Source of the DNA: Woeseiaceae bacterium | Lineage (GTDB): Bacteria > Pseudomonadota > Gammaproteobacteria > Steroidobacterales > Woeseiaceae | Length of the DNA stretch: 38,071 bases | Direction of reading: 5' to 3' | NCBI GenBank assembly: GCA_013001045.1 | Contig: JABDNG010000071.1 | Location: forward strand, 1-38,071 | Part shown: positions 3,406 to 29,432 of the stretch, one piece after another | Layout: the number at the start of each line of letters is the position of its first letter | Numbering within the stretch: the first letter of the stretch is position 1 | Notes under the pieces: model-generated | What the model was told of the DNA's origin: nothing | The model's database searches: none | The model's input: the letters and a program-made list of their open reading frames with translations, nothing else | Translations under genes and position numbers: made by a program

Positions 3406-4409
3406 CAGCGGCCTCCCAACATCTGGTGCAACACGGCCATCTGCGCAAGCATGCGATTGCGTGCTTCGGGAATCACGACGCTGCGCGGCCCGTCAAGGAT
3501 ATCGTCAGCGACGACAACGCCGCGCCGGACCGGGAGGCAGTGCATGAAACGACAGTCATCCTGCGCATTGCCGAACCAGGATTCGTCGACACACCAGTCC
3601 AGGTGTTGTTCGCGTAATTTCTGATCGGCAAGCCGATCGCCGTAGTGTCGCGTTGACGACCATGACTTGGCATAGATGACGTGCGCGTCCTGCATGGCCT
3701 CGTCGCGGTCATTGCTTTCCTTAATGGATCCGCCGGCAGCATCAGCCGCGGCGGTCGCTTTTTGCATGAGTTGATCCGGCAACTCGAATCCTTCGGGACG
3801 CAACACGGTCACGTCCATGCCGCGTTTTGCCGCCATGTGCAGCGTCGCGGCCGGCACGGCGAGCGGCAGCGCTTTCGGGTGGTAAGCCCAGCTCAGCACG
3901 AACTTGCCGCCATTGGACGGGATGCCGAGGTCGTCCATCGTCTTCCAGTCGGCCAGGCTCTGGCACGGATGATTCATGGCGGATTCCATATTGATGAAGG
4001 GCGTATCGATCAAGTCCGTGAGCGCCGTGAACTCGGTTTCCTGCAGGTCATCCTCAATATTCTTTCGCTCGGCAAACGCACGAATACCGATCGCATCGCC
4101 GTACGAGGCGATGACGGGCACGGCTTCGCGAATGTGTTCGGCAGCCGTACCGTCCATGACAATACCGGGCCGCGTCTCAAGTCCATGAATAGACATGTCC
4201 GGTGAAATAACAAACGACCCGCCGCCCAGTCGCGTCATCGCGGCCTGGAACGACGCGAGCGTTCGCAGCGAGGGGCTCAGAAACAGCAGCGATAAAACCT
4301 TGCCTTTCAGTGCGTCCGGTTCGGGATGCGCATCGAGCCGGCTGGCGAGTGCGACGAGCGCCTTGATTTCATCGTTGGAAAAATCGGCGAGGTCGTTAAA
4401 CGCTTTCAT
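3405..4409 (-). CDS. argF': N-acylornithine carbamoyltransferase (acetyl- or succinyl-ornithine)
   Basis: Transfers carbamoyl phosphate to an N-acylated ornithine, giving N-acylcitrulline. This is the variant route known in Xanthomonas (acetyl) and Bacteroides (succinyl). Evidence: the carbamoyl-phosphate site SPSLRTLASF, the segment MDGTAAEHI, HPCQSLADW, the distinctive WAYHPKALPLAVP, and the C-terminal HCLPVRRG. True ornithine carbamoyltransferases lack these last two features. Two oddities: the normally arginine-rich SxRTR loop reads SLRTL, and the residue aligned with Glu92 of the Xanthomonas enzyme is Ala. Which acyl group it uses is therefore open. The start has a clear AAGGA ribosome binding site; the stop overlaps argB. 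Confidence 0.88.
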   Translation of the reverse strand: MKAFNDLADFSNDEIKALVALASRLDAHPEPDALKGKVLSLLFLSPSLRTLASFQAAMTRLGGGSFVISPDMSIHGLETRPGIVMDGTAAEHIREAVPVIASYGDAIGIRAFAERKNIEDDLQETEFTALTDLIDTPFINMESAMNHPCQSLADWKTMDDLGIPSNGGKFVLSWAYHPKALPLAVPAATLHMAAKRGMDVTVLRPEGFELPDQLMQKATAAADAAGGSIKESNDRDEAMQDAHVIYAKSWSSTRHYGDRLADQKLREQHLDWCVDESWFGNAQDDCRFMHCLPVRRGVVVADDILDGPRSVVIPEARNRMLAQMAVLHQMLGGR

Positions 4410-21556: not shown

Positions 21557-22486
21557 CTAGTTGCCACGCTCGACAATGAATCGGGCAAGCCAGGCCAGGG
21601 GCGCTGCATTCCGGCCGAAGGCGTCAAGATGTTGCAGCGCGCTATCGAGCAGTTCATCGCAGCGCTGTCGCGCCCTGTCGGGGCCGAACAAGCCGGGATA
21701 CGTCGCTTTTCCAAGTCGCTGGTCCGCGCCAGCCTGTTTGCCGATGATGTGCGTTTCGCCTTCGACATCCAGGATGTCGTCCTTGATCTGAAAAGCAACA
21801 CCGATGGCGCTGGCAAACGCATCGATCGCTTGCGTATCGGCGCGCGACAGGTCTTCACTGAGCAGGCTGGCCGACACAACAGCTGCGTGGATCAGCGCCC
21901 CTGTCTTTAACGCATACATGTGTTCAAGTGCGTCTTCACTCAGGGTATTTCCTTCGGCTGCGAGGTCGATCGACTGGCCACCGGTCATGCCTGTTGATCC
22001 ACAGGCACTGGCAACGAGCTGTACCAGCGCATTCTTCACGGAGGCCGGCACACCGCCGACGTTCGTCAGTACCGAGAATGCCAGGGGTTGCAGCGCGTCG
22101 GCGGCGAGTATGGCGGTGGCTTCGTCATACTTGACGTGCACCGTCGGTTTGCCACGGCGCAGATCGTCATCGTCCATGGCAGGTAAGTCGTCATGCACGA
22201 GTGAAAAGGCATGAATCAGTTCGATGGCCACGGCCGGTGCGTCGAGCAATGTCGTATTGACATCGAGGCACTCGCCGGCTGCGTAAACCAGCAATGGCCG
22301 AACTCGCTTTCCACCATTGAGGACCGCGTAGCGCATGGCCTCGTGAAGCCGGGCTGGTTCGGTCGACGGTCGTGGCAGGGCCGCATCGAGGCAGGCGTCG
22401 ACGCGCTTGGTATAAGTGGCGATACGTTGTTCGAAGGTTTCAGGCAACGGCTCGGGCGCTCCGGGTACGGGCCATGTAGCGTACAC
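21557..22486 (-). CDS. ispA: farnesyl diphosphate synthase (short-chain polyprenyl synthase)
   Basis: Condenses DMAPP and IPP to geranyl and farnesyl diphosphate, using the output of the mevalonate genes next door. GGKRVRP, the first aspartate-rich motif DDLPAMDDDDLRRG, and the second motif FQIKDDILDVEG are all intact. Length is 309 residues with the GTG start at 22486; a TTG at codon 13 is an alternative, and a CATAAT -10-like site only four bases upstream leaves the true start uncertain. Unusually, it is not in an xseB-ispA-dxs cluster, which fits the absence of MEP-pathway genes here. Confidence 0.93.
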   Translation of the reverse strand: MYATWPVPGAPEPLPETFEQRIATYTKRVDACLDAALPRPSTEPARLHEAMRYAVLNGGKRVRPLLVYAAGECLDVNTTLLDAPAVAIELIHAFSLVHDDLPAMDDDDLRRGKPTVHVKYDEATAILAADALQPLAFSVLTNVGGVPASVKNALVQLVASACGSTGMTGGQSIDLAAEGNTLSEDALEHMYALKTGALIHAAVVSASLLSEDLSRADTQAIDAFASAIGVAFQIKDDILDVEGETHIIGKQAGADQRLGKATYPGLFGPDRARQRCDELLDSALQHLDAFGRNAAPLAWLARFIVERGN

Positions 22487-22497
22487 CGAATTATGCC

Positions 22498-22526
22498 GCT
22501 GTGCGCGCGTCCCGCTGGGCTATAAT
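22498..22526 (+). promoter_or_regulatory. promoter of the mevalonate operon
   Basis: A perfect TATAAT at 22521-22526 lies about 40 bases ahead of the mvaD ATG, in the 80-base gap between divergent ispA and mvaD. The -35 at 17 bases spacing (GCTGTG, 22498) is poor, so an activator or a weak promoter is possible. Confidence 0.55.
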
Positions 22527-22566
22527 TCGCGTCCCTGATTGGCAGATAACACCAAGAGTCGTAGAC

Positions 22567-23529
22567 ATGCGGGCAACAGCGATCGCCCAGCCGAACATCG
22601 CGCTCATTAAATACTGGGGCAAGCGCGACCTGGAGCGAAACCTGCCGGCGGTCGGCTCCATCTCGATCACATTGCGGGACCTCTACACAGAGATGTGTGT
22701 CGAACTCGATGAGGGTCTGTCGGCCGACCGTCTCACGGTGAACGGCGCTGTCGATGATGCGCTATTGCCGCGCTTGTCTGCTTGCCTCGACCTTGTCGTC
22801 GGGCGATCCCGTCCGTGTGCGCGGATTGTTAGCCGCTGCAACTTTCCGATCGGGGCCGGTCTCGCCTCATCGGCCTCCGCGTTTGCGGCGACCACCCTCG
22901 CCGCGGCACACGCGGCCGGAAAATCGCTCAGCATCGAGGCGCTTGCCGGACTCGCCGGACAATCGTCGGGATCGGCGGCGCGCTCCCTCTACGGTGGCTT
23001 TGCCGAACTCGAAAACAGGGGCGACGCGATCGCCGTCCGGGCATTGTGTGGGCGTGATGAGTGGCCCCTGAGCGTCGTCGTTGCGATTACCGAAACCGGA
23101 CCGAAGGCGATCGGCTCTACAGAGGCGATGGAAATCAGTCGCAAGACCTCGCCGTTCTACTCGAACTGGGTTGAGCGCCAGAAGGATGACCTGGGAACGG
23201 CTCGCGAGGCCATACTAAAGCGTGACTTCGAACAGCTCGCGACGATCGCCGAACACAATTGCCTGAAGATGCATTCGGTCATGTGGGCATCGCGGCCACC
23301 GACGGTGTACTGGAATTCCGCAACCTTGCGCTGCCTTGAATCCGTACGTGAACTTCAGGGAGCTGGCCTCGGTGTCTTCTTTACGATCGACGCCGGTCCC
23401 CAGGTCAAGGCGGTATGTCTTCCCGAGTACGCAGACGACGTTCGAGCAGCGCTATCTGCAACCGAGGGCGTCGACGACGTCATGGTGACGGGTCTCGGTG
23501 ATGCGGCCCGCCTTACGGATGTCGCGTGA
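22567..23529 (+). CDS. mvaD: diphosphomevalonate decarboxylase
   Basis: GHMP-superfamily enzyme that converts mevalonate diphosphate to isopentenyl diphosphate with ATP. The 320 residues begin at ATG 22567. Signatures are PNIALIKYWGKRD near the N-terminus, the phosphate-binding GAGLASSASAFAA, GSAARSLYGGFAEL, and FTIDAGPQVKAV with the catalytic aspartate region. An upstream frame extension to 22501 overlaps the promoter and is discarded. It is the first gene of the operon; its stop overlaps the next start as GTGA. Confidence 0.95.
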   Translation: MRATAIAQPNIALIKYWGKRDLERNLPAVGSISITLRDLYTEMCVELDEGLSADRLTVNGAVDDALLPRLSACLDLVVGRSRPCARIVSRCNFPIGAGLASSASAFAATTLAAAHAAGKSLSIEALAGLAGQSSGSAARSLYGGFAELENRGDAIAVRALCGRDEWPLSVVVAITETGPKAIGSTEAMEISRKTSPFYSNWVERQKDDLGTAREAILKRDFEQLATIAEHNCLKMHSVMWASRPPTVYWNSATLRCLESVRELQGAGLGVFFTIDAGPQVKAVCLPEYADDVRAALSATEGVDDVMVTGLGDAARLTDVA

Positions 23530-24512
23530 CGGCGGTATCTGCAAGTGCGCCCGGCAAAGTCGTATTGTGCGGGGAGTATGCGGTGCTGGACGGTGCCCCT
23601 GCCGTCTGCATGGCGATCGATCGTCGGGCAACGGTCAAAGTGACGGACTTCGACGGCGACTGGCACTCGGTTGCCGCGCCCGGTTACTCATCGCTTGAAG
23701 GGCGGTTTGTCACCGATGGCGCGCAGCTCGACTGGCTGCAGGGCGGGGATGAATTCGTGATCGTCGATGCCGTCTGGCACGTAGTCGCCAATCGCCTTGC
23801 GCAACGTGAGGGCAACGACTGCTTGCGCATCGAGCTGGATACAAGGGCGTTCATCGATCGCGAATCGGGTGAAAAGATCGGCGTGGGCTCGAGTGCAGCG
23901 CTGACGGTCGCGTTGTCAGCAGCGCTGACTCAATCGACCGACGTGCTTGCGGAAGCCATGCAGGCCCATCACCGTTTTCAAAAAGAAGCCGGCAGTGGCG
24001 TCGATATAATGACCAGCGTGCGTGGCGGCCTGATCGAATACCGCATGAATGCAAGGTCGTCGTCGCCACTACGCTGGCCCGCCGGCCTTGCGTACCGCGT
24101 GATCTGGACCGGCGTAGCGGCCAGTACGCGGATGAAGCTTCAGAAGCTCGCAGACACCCGCCATCGCGCGTCGCGAACGGAACTCTTGAAGGCGGCTGAG
24201 ATCATGGCACCGGCATGGCGATCGGCATCGGGGGTGCTGCGCGAGCTGCCGCGGTACATCGAGGCACTCCGGCAATTCAGCATTGACCACGATCTCGGCA
24301 TATTCGATGCTGGTCACGATCAACTTGTAAACGAGGCAGTCGACGCGGGGCTGGTGTACAAGCCGTGTGGCGCTGGCGGCGGCGATGTCGGTATCTTGCT
24401 GGGCACGAGTGACGAACATCTGGATGAATTTATGAGCAGCCGCCGAGCTTCAGGCGGCCGCGTGCTGAATTGCATGCTTGAAACCGATGGCGTTGAGTTG
24501 GAGCGGCGTTGA
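23526..24512 (+). CDS. phosphomevalonate kinase
   Basis: GHMP kinase of 328 residues that phosphorylates phosphomevalonate. Motif 1 is SAPGKVVLCGEYAVLDG (5-21), motif 2 KIGVGSSAALTVAL, and motif 3 KPCGAGGGDVGI. HRFQKEAGSGVDIMTSVRGG matches the substrate-binding region of phosphomevalonate kinases. The start is GTG (23526-23528) within the mvaD stop, and the end overlaps the following TTG start. Motifs alone would allow other GHMP kinases; the operon context makes the assignment. Confidence 0.88.
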   Translation: MTAVSASAPGKVVLCGEYAVLDGAPAVCMAIDRRATVKVTDFDGDWHSVAAPGYSSLEGRFVTDGAQLDWLQGGDEFVIVDAVWHVVANRLAQREGNDCLRIELDTRAFIDRESGEKIGVGSSAALTVALSAALTQSTDVLAEAMQAHHRFQKEAGSGVDIMTSVRGGLIEYRMNARSSSPLRWPAGLAYRVIWTGVAASTRMKLQKLADTRHRASRTELLKAAEIMAPAWRSASGVLRELPRYIEALRQFSIDHDLGIFDAGHDQLVNEAVDAGLVYKPCGAGGGDVGILLGTSDEHLDEFMSSRRASGGRVLNCMLETDGVELERR

Positions 24513-26719
24513 ACGATTCTAGAATTGCAGGCCTTTACAAGCTCAACGTGGCAGAGCGCATCGACACGCTGGCGCGCGAAGGCTGGTTGACGTCCGCCGA
24601 CGCCGACAGACTTCGTGATGGTCGCCAGGTGTTGTCGAGCGTTGCCGCGGACAAGATCATCGAGAATGTGGTCGGTGTATTCGGCTTGCCGTTCGCAATT
24701 GCGCCAAATTTCCGCGTGAATGACCGCGACTACATCGTTCCGCTCGTGGTCGAGGAACCGTCGATTGTCGCGGCCCTGAGTGATGCCGCGCGCCGCGCCC
24801 GGGGCAGCGGGGGATTTCACGCCAGCTGCGACGAGTCATTACTGGCCGGACAAGTGTATATATCGGGCATCGCGCATGCTGATGCCGCCATGGAGGCGCT
24901 GCGGGCTGCGAAACAGGAGGTGCTGGACGCCGCAAATGAGGTGCATCCCCGTTTGAGTGCGAGGGGCGGGGGTGTGCGCGATCTCGAGGTTCGATTGTTC
25001 TCGCTGCCCGATGGCACGCCGCTCATTCGTGTGCACTTGTGGGTCGATACGGCCGACGCCATGGGCGCAAACCTGGTCAATACGATTTGCGAAGCCGTGG
25101 CGCCGCGAATCGCAACGCTCTGTCAGGGTGACGTGTCGCTAAGGATCTTGTCGAACCTCGCGGATCGATCGATTGTCACGGCGCGGGTTCGCTACCTGCC
25201 GGAGGATTTGACCGGCAGCGGATTTGATGGAGCTGCGGTTCGCGACGCGATTGTCATGGCCAGCAATATTGCCACGGTCGACCCGCATCGAGCGGCCACG
25301 CACAACAAAGGCATCATGAATGGCGTCGACGCACTGGCGATTGCAACGGGTAATGACTGGCGGGCGATTGAAGCGGGCGCGCATTCTTTTGCGGCCGCGA
25401 GCGGACAGTATCGGCCGTTAACGCGCTGGACAGCGGGCACGGACGGTGCCCTGCTTGGCGAAATCGCGATACCGCTAAAGGTCGGCACGGTCGGTGGCAC
25501 GCTGGACGCCAATCCTGCGGCGGCCCTGGGTCTCGCAGTGACGGGCGCGAAAAAGGCTACCGAGCTCGCATCGCTGATGGCGAGTGTCGGCCTGGCGCAG
25601 AATTTTGCGGCTTTGCGTGCGCTGGCGAGCAGCGGGATTCAACAGGGCCACATGAAATTGCATGCCCGCAGCGTCGCCGCCGCGGCAGGAACGCCCGACG
25701 AACATTTTGACGCAGTCGTTGCCCGGCTCATCGATAGCGGCGAGATCAAGGATTGGAAAGCCGAGCAGATTCTCGACGAAATACGCGCCAAGGGTAGCCG
25801 TCAAGATGCGCCGAACGGGACGGCAGCCGGGAAGGTCATACTGTTCGGCGAGCACGCGGCTGTCTACGGTCGTCATGCGCTGGCCTTGCCCATTCCAGAC
25901 GCCGTGCGCGTGTATGTCGAGCAGGCTGAAAGGACCACGTCAGTCGCGATTCCGGATTGGGGCATCTCGGGCGACATCGATCTCGAAAACCTGCACGGCG
26001 TCGATGCCGCAATTAATCTTATTCTGCGGCAACTTGATATCCCAGAAGCCTGTTTCTCGATCACGGTGGACACCCGTTTGCCGAGAGCCATGGGTCTGGG
26101 GTCGTCCGCGGCAATCGCGGTGGCTGTGACGCGGGCAATCTGCGATGTGATGCAGCTCCCGGTTACTGACGAGCGCATCAATGCCATCGTGTTCGAGTGC
26201 GAGAAACTGGCCCATGGCACACCGTCCGGCGTGGATAATACGATCTCGACGTATGCTGAGCCCATGTTGTTCTGTAATGATGGCGCCCTGCAAAGCGAAG
26301 CGCTGACGTTGACGGAAATCCCGCCGCTCGTTATCGCGTGCAGTAATGAGTTGGGATTAACGAGTGAACAGGTCGCCGGCGTAAGATCGAGGTACGAGCA
26401 GGCACCACGACGTTATGAGGCGTTGTTTGATGAAATCGACAAGATCAGCCGGAGCGGAGCGCAGCTTTTGCAGTCGCGTAACTACAAGGCGCTGGGTCTG
26501 GCCATGAATGTCTGCCATGGATTGTTGAATGCGATCGAGGTATCGACGCCCGAGCTGGAGCGCATGGTTACGCTGGCGCGGCAGGCCGGGGCCGTTGGCG
26601 CGAAGCTGACCGGCGGCGGCGGCGGCGGTTCGATTGTCGCACTCTGTCCCGGCACGGTTGACGACGTGCGCACTGCCATGCAGCAAGCCGGGTATCGAAC
26701 ATTGGACATGCAACAATGA
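24509..26719 (+). CDS. HMG-CoA reductase (class II) / mevalonate kinase fusion
   Basis: One 736-residue chain carrying two consecutive steps: HMG-CoA to mevalonate, then mevalonate to 5-phosphomevalonate. Residues 1 to about 428 are a class II HMG-CoA reductase. Catalytic Glu83, Lys267 (HNKGIMNG), Asp283 (TGNDWRA) and His381 (QGHMKLH) fall at the same numbers as in the Pseudomonas mevalonii enzyme, and the cofactor segment is DAMGAN (183-188). After a short linker, residues from about 436 are a GHMP mevalonate kinase: GKVILFGEHAAVYG (441-454), PRAMGLGSSAAIAVA (525-539), HGTPSGVDN (569-577) and KLTGGGGGGSIVAL (699-712). The start is TTG (24509), overlapping the previous stop as TTGA; SRIAGLYKLNVAERI right after it is a normal reductase N-terminus. 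There is no stop or frameshift between the halves. Confidence 0.93.
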   Translation: MNDSRIAGLYKLNVAERIDTLAREGWLTSADADRLRDGRQVLSSVAADKIIENVVGVFGLPFAIAPNFRVNDRDYIVPLVVEEPSIVAALSDAARRARGSGGFHASCDESLLAGQVYISGIAHADAAMEALRAAKQEVLDAANEVHPRLSARGGGVRDLEVRLFSLPDGTPLIRVHLWVDTADAMGANLVNTICEAVAPRIATLCQGDVSLRILSNLADRSIVTARVRYLPEDLTGSGFDGAAVRDAIVMASNIATVDPHRAATHNKGIMNGVDALAIATGNDWRAIEAGAHSFAAASGQYRPLTRWTAGTDGALLGEIAIPLKVGTVGGTLDANPAAALGLAVTGAKKATELASLMASVGLAQNFAALRALASSGIQQGHMKLHARSVAAAAGTPDEHFDAVVARLIDSGEIKDWKAEQILDEIRAKGSRQDAPNGTAAGKVILFGEHAAVYGRHALALPIPDAVRVYVEQAERTTSVAIPDWGISGDIDLENLHGVDAAINLILRQLDIPEACFSITVDTRLPRAMGLGSSAAIAVAVTRAICDVMQLPVTDERINAIVFECEKLAHGTPSGVDNTISTYAEPMLFCNDGALQSEALTLTEIPPLVIACSNELGLTSEQVAGVRSRYEQAPRRYEALFDEIDKISRSGAQLLQSRNYKALGLAMNVCHGLLNAIEVSTPELERMVTLARQAGAVGAKLTGGGGGGSIVALCPGTVDDVRTAMQQAGYRTLDMQQ

Positions 26720-27291
26720 ACGACAATCACAGGATCGTATCGTCAGAGAACGAGGAGTTGATTCTCGTCGATGAGGACGATAACGAACTCGGCCATCTTT
26801 CGAAAGCCCGCTGCCACGACGGTGCCGGTGTTCTGCATCGCGCATTTTCGCTGTTTCTGTTCAACGACGAAGGCGATTTACTGTTGCAGCAGCGCAGCGA
26901 CGAGAAGCGTCTGTGGCCCGGCTTCTGGTCGAATAGCTGTTGCAGCCATCCGCGCCGCGGCGAGTCCATGGAGATCGCAACCGCACGACGTCTCAGTGAT
27001 GAGCTGAATATCGAGGCGGCGCTCGAGCATGTCTACCAATTCTGCTATACGGCGACGTTCGGCGAATCGGGCTCGGAGAACGAGCTTTGCCATGTCTATC
27101 TCGGCAAGCTTGGCGGTGACGTACAGCCTAACGACAGCGAGATTGCTGCGGTGCGTTTTGTAGCTGCATCCACACTCGAGGAGGAACTGTCCCGGGATCC
27201 CGCGGGATTTACGCCATGGTTCAAACAGGAGTGGCGCGAGCTACAGGTAAATCATCGCGAAAAACTGGCGCGCTATTGCAATCCTGCCTGA
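26716..27291 (+). CDS. idi: isopentenyl-diphosphate delta-isomerase, type 1
   Basis: Interconverts IPP and DMAPP; a Nudix-fold metalloenzyme of 191 residues. The catalytic cysteine lies in FWSNSCCSHPRRGES, the catalytic glutamate in GSENELCHVY, and LSDELNI lies in the Nudix helix. LLLQQRSDEKRLWPGFW is typical of the type 1 family. The ATG overlaps the fusion gene's stop (ATGA). It closes the plus-strand mevalonate operon, 100 bases from the convergent HMG-CoA synthase. Confidence 0.95.
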   Translation: MNDNHRIVSSENEELILVDEDDNELGHLSKARCHDGAGVLHRAFSLFLFNDEGDLLLQQRSDEKRLWPGFWSNSCCSHPRRGESMEIATARRLSDELNIEAALEHVYQFCYTATFGESGSENELCHVYLGKLGGDVQPNDSEIAAVRFVAASTLEEELSRDPAGFTPWFKQEWRELQVNHREKLARYCNPA

Positions 27292-27350: not shown

Positions 27351-27393
27351 GAGCGAGCTTGCAACAACGTCTTGCAGCGTTGGGCTCGCGCTC
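27351..27393. terminator. possible bidirectional hairpin between idi and HMG-CoA synthase
   Basis: GAGCGAGC (27351-27358) can pair imperfectly with GCTCGCGCTC (27384-27393), enclosing CAACG...CGTTG arms. It lies where two convergent transcripts meet, but no U-tract follows on either strand, so intrinsic termination is doubtful. Confidence 0.25.
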
Positions 27394-28870
27394 AGGCTAT
27401 GTACTTGTAGTACTCGATGCCCAGATCGCTAAAGTGACGCTCGTCAGTGCCACCGACGCGATCAATGATGAACTCGTTGCTTGGCACGTAGCTCAGGCCC
27501 GTAACGCGCCGGCCGTCATGCAATGCTTCGTATTGCTCACGATTGAGATCGACCGCAAGCTGCATGGCATCGCCAAAGTGAATCTTCGTTGTGGCTTCGC
27601 GCCAGCCGTCTGCCATAAAAAACGGAATAACTTCGGCGGCGTCGCCGCTGCCGTAGCCGAGCGTCAGCACTTCCTCACCGGCTCTGAGCGAGTCTTCATC
27701 CAGTGCCTGCTCGAAACCTGCCGCCATCCAGGCCGGTAACGCAGCCGTATAGAGATTGCCGAGGTCGAGCATCGTATCGCTGCCGAGCGCCATCTTGTCT
27801 AGAATCTCCCGGCGGTAATGTCGTGATGCACGAAAAGCGCGCAGTGCTGCCATTGTCAGTGGGTAAGCTTCGTACTGCAGTTTTTCCGGCGTCGCAAGTG
27901 CAGCAACCTCGGGTTTGCTGAGCATTTCGACTCGTACAGCCTCCACATCGACGCCCGCCTCGTAGCAATAGGACGCGAGTTCGGCGCGATCGGCGGCATT
28001 CCCCTGGCTCAGCGCGAACAGGTAGGAGATGGCCCAGCCGGTTTCGGGCATGCGCCGATACGGTCGATGCATAAACACGGTCCGCAGCGAGCGCAGGTAA
28101 TCACTCGCTGTCAGGTCCCGCTTCTCATACATGTCGTTCATCGCATGCAATGTCTCGTCGACATAGCAAGTTGTCGAATACTTGCCGTTAAATACCGGGA
28201 AGTCCTGTACCTGGTGCGATTCTGCGCGATCCTGGCCGCAAAAACGCAGCATCGGTTTGCGAAAATCCATGATGCGGTAGTCGGACGCGGAGCCCGAGCC
28301 GATAAGGTCGACGACCGCGAGTTGCGGATCTTCCTCAAGCAACATGGCGACAGCACCTGCACCTTGCGTCGGTTCGCCCGAACTGCCACGCGCGTATTCG
28401 GCGATGTCGGCGCAGACGACAATCGCCTGGCTGCCAGCGCCATCCAGCGCAAGATGTCGAATGGCGCCTTTCATCCCGTAAACGCCGCCCAGACAGGCAT
28501 GCTTGAACTCAGGGACTTCGCAACTGCGCGAAATGGGCGCTTTGCCACGCGCGACGAGGGCCGCATCGACCATGCCTTTGACCACGATCGCACCGGCGGA
28601 ATTATCGGTGCTGGATTCTGTGCCCAGACCCAGGAACTTCACACGCGCCGGGTCGATGTCGTACTGCTCGATCAGCCGCAGAACTGCATTGGCGGCCATC
28701 GTGTAAACGCTCTGATTGGGCCCGCGAACGCGAAAACTCCGCCCGACGACCTCGCGAATTTTTGGCCACTGGTTATCCGTCCAGTCGCACCAGTCCTCGA
28801 GCCATACCCGGTACGGCGGGACGTACGCGGCGAGGCCGCTGATTCCGATGGTCTTATGGGGTCTGGACAT
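27392..28870 (-). CDS. hydroxymethylglutaryl-CoA synthase
   Basis: Condenses acetyl-CoA with acetoacetyl-CoA, the committed entry to the mevalonate pathway. Thiolase-fold protein of 492 residues from ATG 28870. The catalytic triad is readable: Glu85 in GTESSTDNSAG, the nucleophile Cys126 in FKHACLGGVYG, and His268 in FMHRPYRRMPE. LTLGYGSGDAAEV is the conserved C-terminal loop. The ORF reaches 29080, and another ATG exists at 28921, but a good promoter at 28902-28930 lies inside that extension, which supports 28870. It is about 100 residues longer than the S. aureus enzyme and closer in style to long bacterial forms. Confidence 0.9.
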   Translation of the reverse strand: MSRPHKTIGISGLAAYVPPYRVWLEDWCDWTDNQWPKIREVVGRSFRVRGPNQSVYTMAANAVLRLIEQYDIDPARVKFLGLGTESSTDNSAGAIVVKGMVDAALVARGKAPISRSCEVPEFKHACLGGVYGMKGAIRHLALDGAGSQAIVVCADIAEYARGSSGEPTQGAGAVAMLLEEDPQLAVVDLIGSGSASDYRIMDFRKPMLRFCGQDRAESHQVQDFPVFNGKYSTTCYVDETLHAMNDMYEKRDLTASDYLRSLRTVFMHRPYRRMPETGWAISYLFALSQGNAADRAELASYCYEAGVDVEAVRVEMLSKPEVAALATPEKLQYEAYPLTMAALRAFRASRHYRREILDKMALGSDTMLDLGNLYTAALPAWMAAGFEQALDEDSLRAGEEVLTLGYGSGDAAEVIPFFMADGWREATTKIHFGDAMQLAVDLNREQYEALHDGRRVTGLSYVPSNEFIIDRVGGTDERHFSDLGIEYYKYIA

Positions 28871-28901
28871 GTATTCGGGCTGAAGTTGACGTAGCCCGGC
28901 G

Positions 28902-28930
28902 ATTTTAGTGTCCCGGGCCATATCTCTCAA
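28902..28930 (-). promoter_or_regulatory. promoter of HMG-CoA synthase
   Basis: On the minus strand, TTGAGA (28930-28925) is followed after 17 bases by TAAAAT (28907-28902). The predicted start is near 28895, about 25 bases ahead of the ATG at 28870. This makes the gene independent of the lipoprotein gene upstream. Confidence 0.65.
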
Positions 28931-28934
28931 CCAT

Positions 28935-29432
28935 TTATTCCACCGTAATGGTGATTGGGTCCGAAACGACGGGCGGATCGTGCGGAATATGCAGGTAATC
29001 TGCGAGCAGCAGGCGCAGTGTGCGCTGACCCGGGTCGAGCGTAATGTCCGTCGCTGTGCTGCCGTCACCAAAATGCACATGATGGGCGTCCGCGGGTACC
29101 GGGGCGCCCGGGTCGGGCACGGCGGTGTCGATCAACAGGTGATGGTGGCCGGAATCGGGCTGCTTGTCGCCCGCTTTGACGACGCTCATGCCCTCGATGC
29201 CGAATTCGATGTGTATCGGGTTCGAGACAGTGTCGCCGTCGGCCGGGCTTATGAAAAATACGCGGGCACCGTCGGGCGAGGGCGTGCGGGGCAGAGCCAC
29301 AGCGTCCGCGACCACTTTGCCCGCAGCGTCGGGTTCAGAGGCGCTTGTGGCCGTATTGTCCGGTTTCGGCCCGCAGGCCGACAGACAAAAAACCGGCGCC
29401 AACGTAAGGATTGTCAAGAGTCGAAAAATCAT
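28935..29432 (-). CDS. DUF4399-type lipoprotein
   Basis: A 165-residue predicted lipoprotein: signal peptide MIFRLLTILTLAPVFC, lipobox LSAC with Cys20. A low-complexity linker follows, then a DUF4399-like domain (from about residue 60) with the hallmark GHHHLLID and later DAHHVHFGDG. The clustered histidines might bind metal, but no function is established. The start (ATG 29432) is set by an AGGAG ribosome binding site; the longer frame from 29489 has an unlikely charged extension. It ends 64 bases before the HMG-CoA synthase start, with that gene's promoter in between. Confidence 0.8.
   Translation of the reverse strand: MIFRLLTILTLAPVFCLSACGPKPDNTATSASEPDAAGKVVADAVALPRTPSPDGARVFFISPADGDTVSNPIHIEFGIEGMSVVKAGDKQPDSGHHHLLIDTAVPDPGAPVPADAHHVHFGDGSTATDITLDPGQRTLRLLLADYLHIPHDPPVVSDPITITVE

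Follow-up and report, generated by a model that had tools for sequence, protein, structure and literature searches.

The 38,071-nucleotide stretch analysed here (the window; positions 1 to 38,071 of contig JABDNG010000071.1 in the Woeseiaceae bacterium assembly GCA_013001045.1) contains a reading frame in which an HMG-CoA reductase (HMGR) appears to run directly into a mevalonate kinase. This raises the question of whether the two enzymes are truly joined, whether they are made and kept as a single protein, and whether that protein makes mevalonate or breaks it down. We put the probability at roughly 90% that it is a bifunctional biosynthetic enzyme with tethered domains and, most likely, a single origin.

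One reading frame, two domains

The gene and its parts are as follows:

24509..26719, plus strand: HMG-CoA reductase–mevalonate kinase fusion gene (736 aa, TTG start)
24509..25792, plus strand: class II HMG-CoA reductase domain (residues 1–428; PF00368, TIGR00532, catalytic residues, fold match to the Pseudomonas mevalonii enzyme, PmHMGR)
25793..25816, plus strand: linker (approximately residues 429–436; pLDDT below 50 at 429–432)
25817..26716, plus strand: mevalonate kinase domain (residues 437–736; TIGR00549, PF00288, PF08544, matches to solved mevalonate kinases)

The frame is continuous over 736 codons from its TTG start, without an internal stop, as an earlier note made from the sequence had claimed. 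A stop or frameshift near codon 430, which that note had named as something that would count against its reading, was sought and not found in the window, and the frame is open there in dozens of independent genomes. The domain searches that it had proposed (HMG-CoA_red and GHMP_kinases) find both domains, and both halves score above the curated cut-offs of the NCBIfam models. Thus, the fusion is a genuine single open reading frame with two complete predicted domains.

The N-terminal half matches Pfam HMG-CoA_red over residues 14–386 (323 bits) and the NCBIfam model TIGR00532 over residues 1–386 (375 bits against a cut-off of 260; model positions 19–395 of 395). Its catalytic residues Glu83, Lys267, Asp283 and His381 align in register, at identical numbers, with those of P. 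mevalonii HMGR (1qax), as the earlier note had read them, and all four are invariant across 79 fused and 40 unfused homologues. In the fused clade, position 146 is occupied by His and position 152 by Arg (78/79 each), against Asp and Leu in Pseudomonas and Bordetella. Since His146 stands where Asp146 of P. mevalonii HMGR favours NADH, use of NADPH or of both coenzymes by the fusion reductase is possible, as a guess. Two fused relatives, L033 (6001–8100) and L035 (2304–4361), are missing residues 400–427 of the reductase domain, which correspond to small helices at its C-terminal end before the linker.

The C-terminal half matches the NCBIfam mevalonate kinase model TIGR00549 over its entire length (237 bits against a cut-off of 163; residues 439–712, model positions 1–276 of 276) as well as the Pfam domains GHMP_kinases_N (residues 500–581) and GHMP_kinases_C (652–729). 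The three GHMP motifs that the earlier note placed from about residue 436 onwards are present and conserved in 35 aligned fusions: K442 with GEH at 447–449, PRAMGLGSSAA at 525–535, GTPSGVDN at 570–577 and KLTGGGGGG at 699–707 are invariant or nearly so, with K442, S533, E565, D576 and the GGGG stretch at 704–707 strictly invariant. The individual roles of K442, S533, E565 and D576 are those ascribed to them in mevalonate kinases generally. As a separate observation, the fusion kinase motif HGTPSGVDNTISTY resembles HGTPSGADNTAATY of the Leishmania major mevalonate kinase (2hfs), and the two motifs could have a shared bacterial source.

Domain arrangement and the question of channelling

An AlphaFold2 model of the protein consists of two confident domains (mean pLDDT 86, pTM 0.57) joined by a linker with pLDDT below 50 at residues 429–432. 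The reductase part matches class II HMGR structures (9dcp and 1qax among them) and the kinase part mevalonate kinases (8teb and 6mde among them), with TM-scores by target of 0.93 for a class II HMGR match and 0.86 for a mevalonate kinase match; no single chain covering both halves is among the structure matches listed. Counted from the reductase motif LHAR to the kinase motif GKxxxxGEH, the spacing is 57 residues in the window and ranges from 27 to 84 across the family.

The earlier note had proposed that, the steps being consecutive, mevalonate could be passed on without leaving the protein, and had suggested a structure prediction of the contact between the domains. The first part stands, in that consecutive steps do lie on one protein; the second finds no backing in a linker of variable length and low confidence, and the prediction returned separate units with the contact undefined. 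It is on the whole improbable that the protein represents an undescribed type of HMGR/mevalonate kinase that is the sole isoprenoid route of certain Gammaproteobacteria and possesses a kinetic coupling unseen in separate enzymes, be it by channelling or by regulation of the reductase through the kinase domain. True substrate channelling, with mevalonate handed from one active site to the other and kept apart from the bulk pool, we hold to be a little less probable still: it would accord with the retention of consecutive steps on one chain across a diverse clade, but the spread in motif-to-motif linker length and the pTM of 0.57 together with the low-confidence linker, hence no defined domain contact, speak against it. 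Nothing found here supports strict channelling, which stays a minor possibility. The spacing and the model fit two independent catalytic units on a flexible tether and not a rigid tunnel.

One product or two

A related alternative is that the fusion merely ensures co-translation at equal dosage, with the chain subsequently cleaved or a second start freeing the kinase. ATG or GTG codons do occur in the linker of some relatives, preceded by a purine-rich stretch in 13 of 72 fusions; however, the window has no ATG, GTG or TTG in frame from residue 385 to residue 444, 26 of the 72 have none within the 25 codons preceding the kinase motif, and where a candidate internal start does exist in relatives its position is unconserved. 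Separate translation products, which the earlier note had named as evidence that would count against it, find no start codon at the junction. Because the junction offers none and relatives share no conserved position for one, release of a free kinase from an internal start appears unlikely, and we regard co-translation as the fusion's only role as distinctly improbable.

Operon context and probable biosynthetic role

The fusion gene is flanked by further genes of isoprenoid biosynthesis:

21557..22486, minus strand: farnesyl diphosphate synthase, divergent from the operon (NF045485, 326 bits, cut-off 275)
22501..23529, plus strand: diphosphomevalonate decarboxylase, first gene of the operon, start codon provisional (TIGR01240, 223 bits, cut-off 171)
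23526..24512, plus strand: phosphomevalonate kinase, divergent in sequence (TIGR01220, 90 bits, below the cut-off of 165.7)
26716..27291, plus strand: type I isopentenyl-diphosphate isomerase (TIGR02150, 152 bits, cut-off 106)
27392..29080, minus strand: HMG-CoA synthase, divergent in sequence and convergent with the operon (PF01154; TIGR01835 below cut-off)

The operon order is diphosphomevalonate decarboxylase, phosphomevalonate kinase, fusion and type I isomerase, with 4-base overlaps at its three junctions (GTGA, TTGA and ATGA, respectively). We place the fusion inside the operon because it overlaps both of its neighbours in this manner. The order decarboxylase–phosphomevalonate kinase–fusion is retained at most fused loci, and the isomerase usually follows; at a few loci the isomerase alone stands beside the fusion. 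The phosphomevalonate kinase, divergent as it is, holds its place in the operon in most fused loci. The HMG-CoA synthase is unusually divergent, its best models scoring well under their cut-offs (TIGR01835, 161 against 360), and its reading frame is long (562 aa), with a probably over-extended start.

Apart from the fusion, no HMGR and no clear mevalonate kinase turned up in the draft genome. The assembly is 78% complete, and its missing MEP-pathway genes are by themselves weak evidence. The comparison covered 60 genomes: its own, 36 others of the genus and 23 from elsewhere in the order. The fusion is present in 48 of these (one copy partial), all without either DXP reductoisomerase (Dxr; PF02670) or GcpE/IspG (PF04551); IspG is present in another 11, alongside Dxr in ten of these, and all 11 lack the fusion; the remaining one, 73% complete, has neither the fusion nor the MEP genes. 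The fusion and the MEP-pathway genes are accordingly mutually exclusive across these 60 relatives, and, judging by gene content, the fusion pathway is most likely essential here, as the route by which isoprenoids are made.

These patterns bear on the direction of the first reaction. A degradative HMGR, converting mevalonate to HMG-CoA with the kinase as an accessory, is what the best-scoring model, TIGR00532, carries in its name, and the match of the four catalytic residues to P. mevalonii is in line with it; yet the complete mevalonate-to-IPP operon, the absence of MEP genes from carriers, the position apart from the Pseudomonas enzymes on the HMGR tree and the replacement of Asp146 by His146 make it very improbable. 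Neither a catabolic context at the locus nor a grouping with Pseudomonas on the tree, by which a Pseudomonas-type degradative enzyme would be recognised, was found. The operon context and the missing MEP genes indicate a biosynthetic reductase, and it is because none of the 60 genomes combines the fusion with MEP genes that we take it to be so despite the ‘degradative’ label. Anyone relying on the NCBI model name ‘hydroxymethylglutaryl-CoA reductase, degradative’ would be misled twice, on the presence of a second activity and on which way the first one runs.

We infer that both activities are present on the predicted bifunctional protein. In the biosynthetic reading, the N-terminal class II HMGR would convert HMG-CoA to mevalonate and the C-terminal GHMP-fold kinase would phosphorylate it with ATP to mevalonate 5-phosphate, which the operon's phosphomevalonate kinase, decarboxylase and isomerase would then take further. 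The tether would presumably fix a 1:1 ratio of the two enzymes and provide a high local concentration of mevalonate at the kinase, and the ATP-driven kinase may pull the reversible reductase forward, such that mevalonate would neither build up nor run back.

Distribution of the fusion

The survey of the architecture suggested in the earlier note finds it to be common in its own lineage and not isolated. A fusion match is present in 35 of the 36 other genomes of the genus, one of these matches (G006) being cut by a contig end after the reductase, and in 12 of the 23 genomes from elsewhere in the order, most of them with one open frame. Of 370 genomes sampled across the class, nine have a full-length fusion, the present genome included, with a partial tenth in G221, and 15 have only a free HMGR (E below 1e-60); a phylum-wide sample of 398 genomes has the fusion in two, again counting the present one. 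Thus, the fused architecture is uncommon overall and characteristic of certain lineages. Among its carriers are Woeseiaceae and further Gammaproteobacteria, Dyella monticola and three Cryobacterium species as isolates, and metagenome-assembled genomes (MAGs) of Calditrichota, Acidobacteriota and Planctomycetota, several of these non-proteobacterial carriers being MAG contigs that are possibly misbinned. No plasmid copy covering 80% of the query was found, the best plasmid matches listed covering the reductase only.

The two halves lie in one frame at 77 of the 119 loci examined, and two further ones (L071 and L072) end inside the kinase, which makes 79 fused loci in all. These two had been labelled unfused on the HMGR tree, where they fall inside the fused group, a label that we reject, as they are cut by contig ends and enter the kinase in frame. 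G006 is likewise uninformative as an unfused relative, its contig ending with the match at base 3658. In most relatives, at 45–81% identity, a single open frame spans the entire protein, and chance or sequencing error is excluded on that account. An assembly or sequencing artefact joining two neighbouring genes, for which one could cite the source being a metagenome-assembled draft of 146 contigs, is ruled out for practical purposes by the same architecture in dozens of independent assemblies, isolates among them.

In nine other gammaproteobacterial genomes (G073, G095, G121, G137, G170, G206, G222, G312 and G385) the HMGR is free and the mevalonate kinase is encoded separately. Since these separate kinases are merely 24–29% identical, the Gammaproteobacteria may have acquired the mevalonate pathway more than once.

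Origin of the fusion

The fused sequences all fall into one group on the HMGR tree (support 100), neighboured by unfused enzymes of Bacillaceae, Listeria and Myxococcota. The distances of the two halves correlate across 75 fusions (r=0.884; best of 1000 permutations 0.09); the halves have thus evolved together, and domain swaps are rare. A single origin also fits the kinase trees, save for long archaeal branches inside the fused group whose placement is unsure; owing to these, the kinase-domain tree by itself is not enough to establish it. Taken together, the fusion probably originated once. The Cryobacterium fusions sit beside Salinisphaera, a position that fits horizontal transfer. The fusion most likely arose from adjacent genes of a mevalonate operon and would have spread by descent as well as by horizontal transfer of the operon, with replacement of the MEP pathway.

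Relationship to known systems

Each half belongs to a well-known enzyme family, and their pairing is apparently uncharacterised. A full-text literature search, with most subscription papers outside its coverage and an earlier mention therefore possible, returned no description of an HMGR–mevalonate kinase pairing, which agrees with the earlier note. Passages of a review from 2026 on isoprenoid pathways in bacteria (PMC13001223) name MvaE and IspDF as fusions and make no mention of an HMGR–kinase fusion. The protein may be of relevance to mevalonate-based isoprenoid production as a natural design in which the reductase, often flux-limiting, is coupled to the enzyme that follows it, and it marks those gammaproteobacterial lineages (Woeseiaceae-like and others) in which the mevalonate pathway takes the place of the MEP pathway.

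MvaE of Enterococcus resembles the fusion in being bifunctional and in having a class II HMGR. However, MvaE joins the reductase to the upstream acetoacetyl-CoA thiolase, whereas here it is joined at its C terminus to the downstream kinase; Pfam and NCBIfam scans found no thiolase domain in the fusion protein, and the contrast that the earlier note had drawn with MvaE holds. The reductase half shares its fold, full length and four catalytic residues with the HMGRs of P. mevalonii (1qax) and Streptococcus pneumoniae (5wpj), but differs from free class II enzymes in the added C-terminal kinase and the biosynthetic operon, and from the Pseudomonas type at residues 146 and 152 (His and Arg, against Asp and Leu). 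The kinase half is alike in fold and GHMP motifs to those of Methanosarcina mazei (6mde), Leishmania major (2hfs) and Staphylococcus aureus (2x7i); these are free-standing, whereas the fusion kinase is a C-terminal domain without a start codon of its own. In the Bacillaceae (Virgibacillus and Oceanobacillus; gene order HMGR-MK-MVD), HMGR and mevalonate kinase are two reading frames with an ATGA overlap, in the same order as in the fusion. Their HMGR lies near the fused group on the tree and their kinase is about 30–33% identical to the fused one, at which identity the Bacillaceae need not be the direct source of the fusion; by analogy, their ATGA overlap shows how small the step from adjacent genes to a fusion can be.
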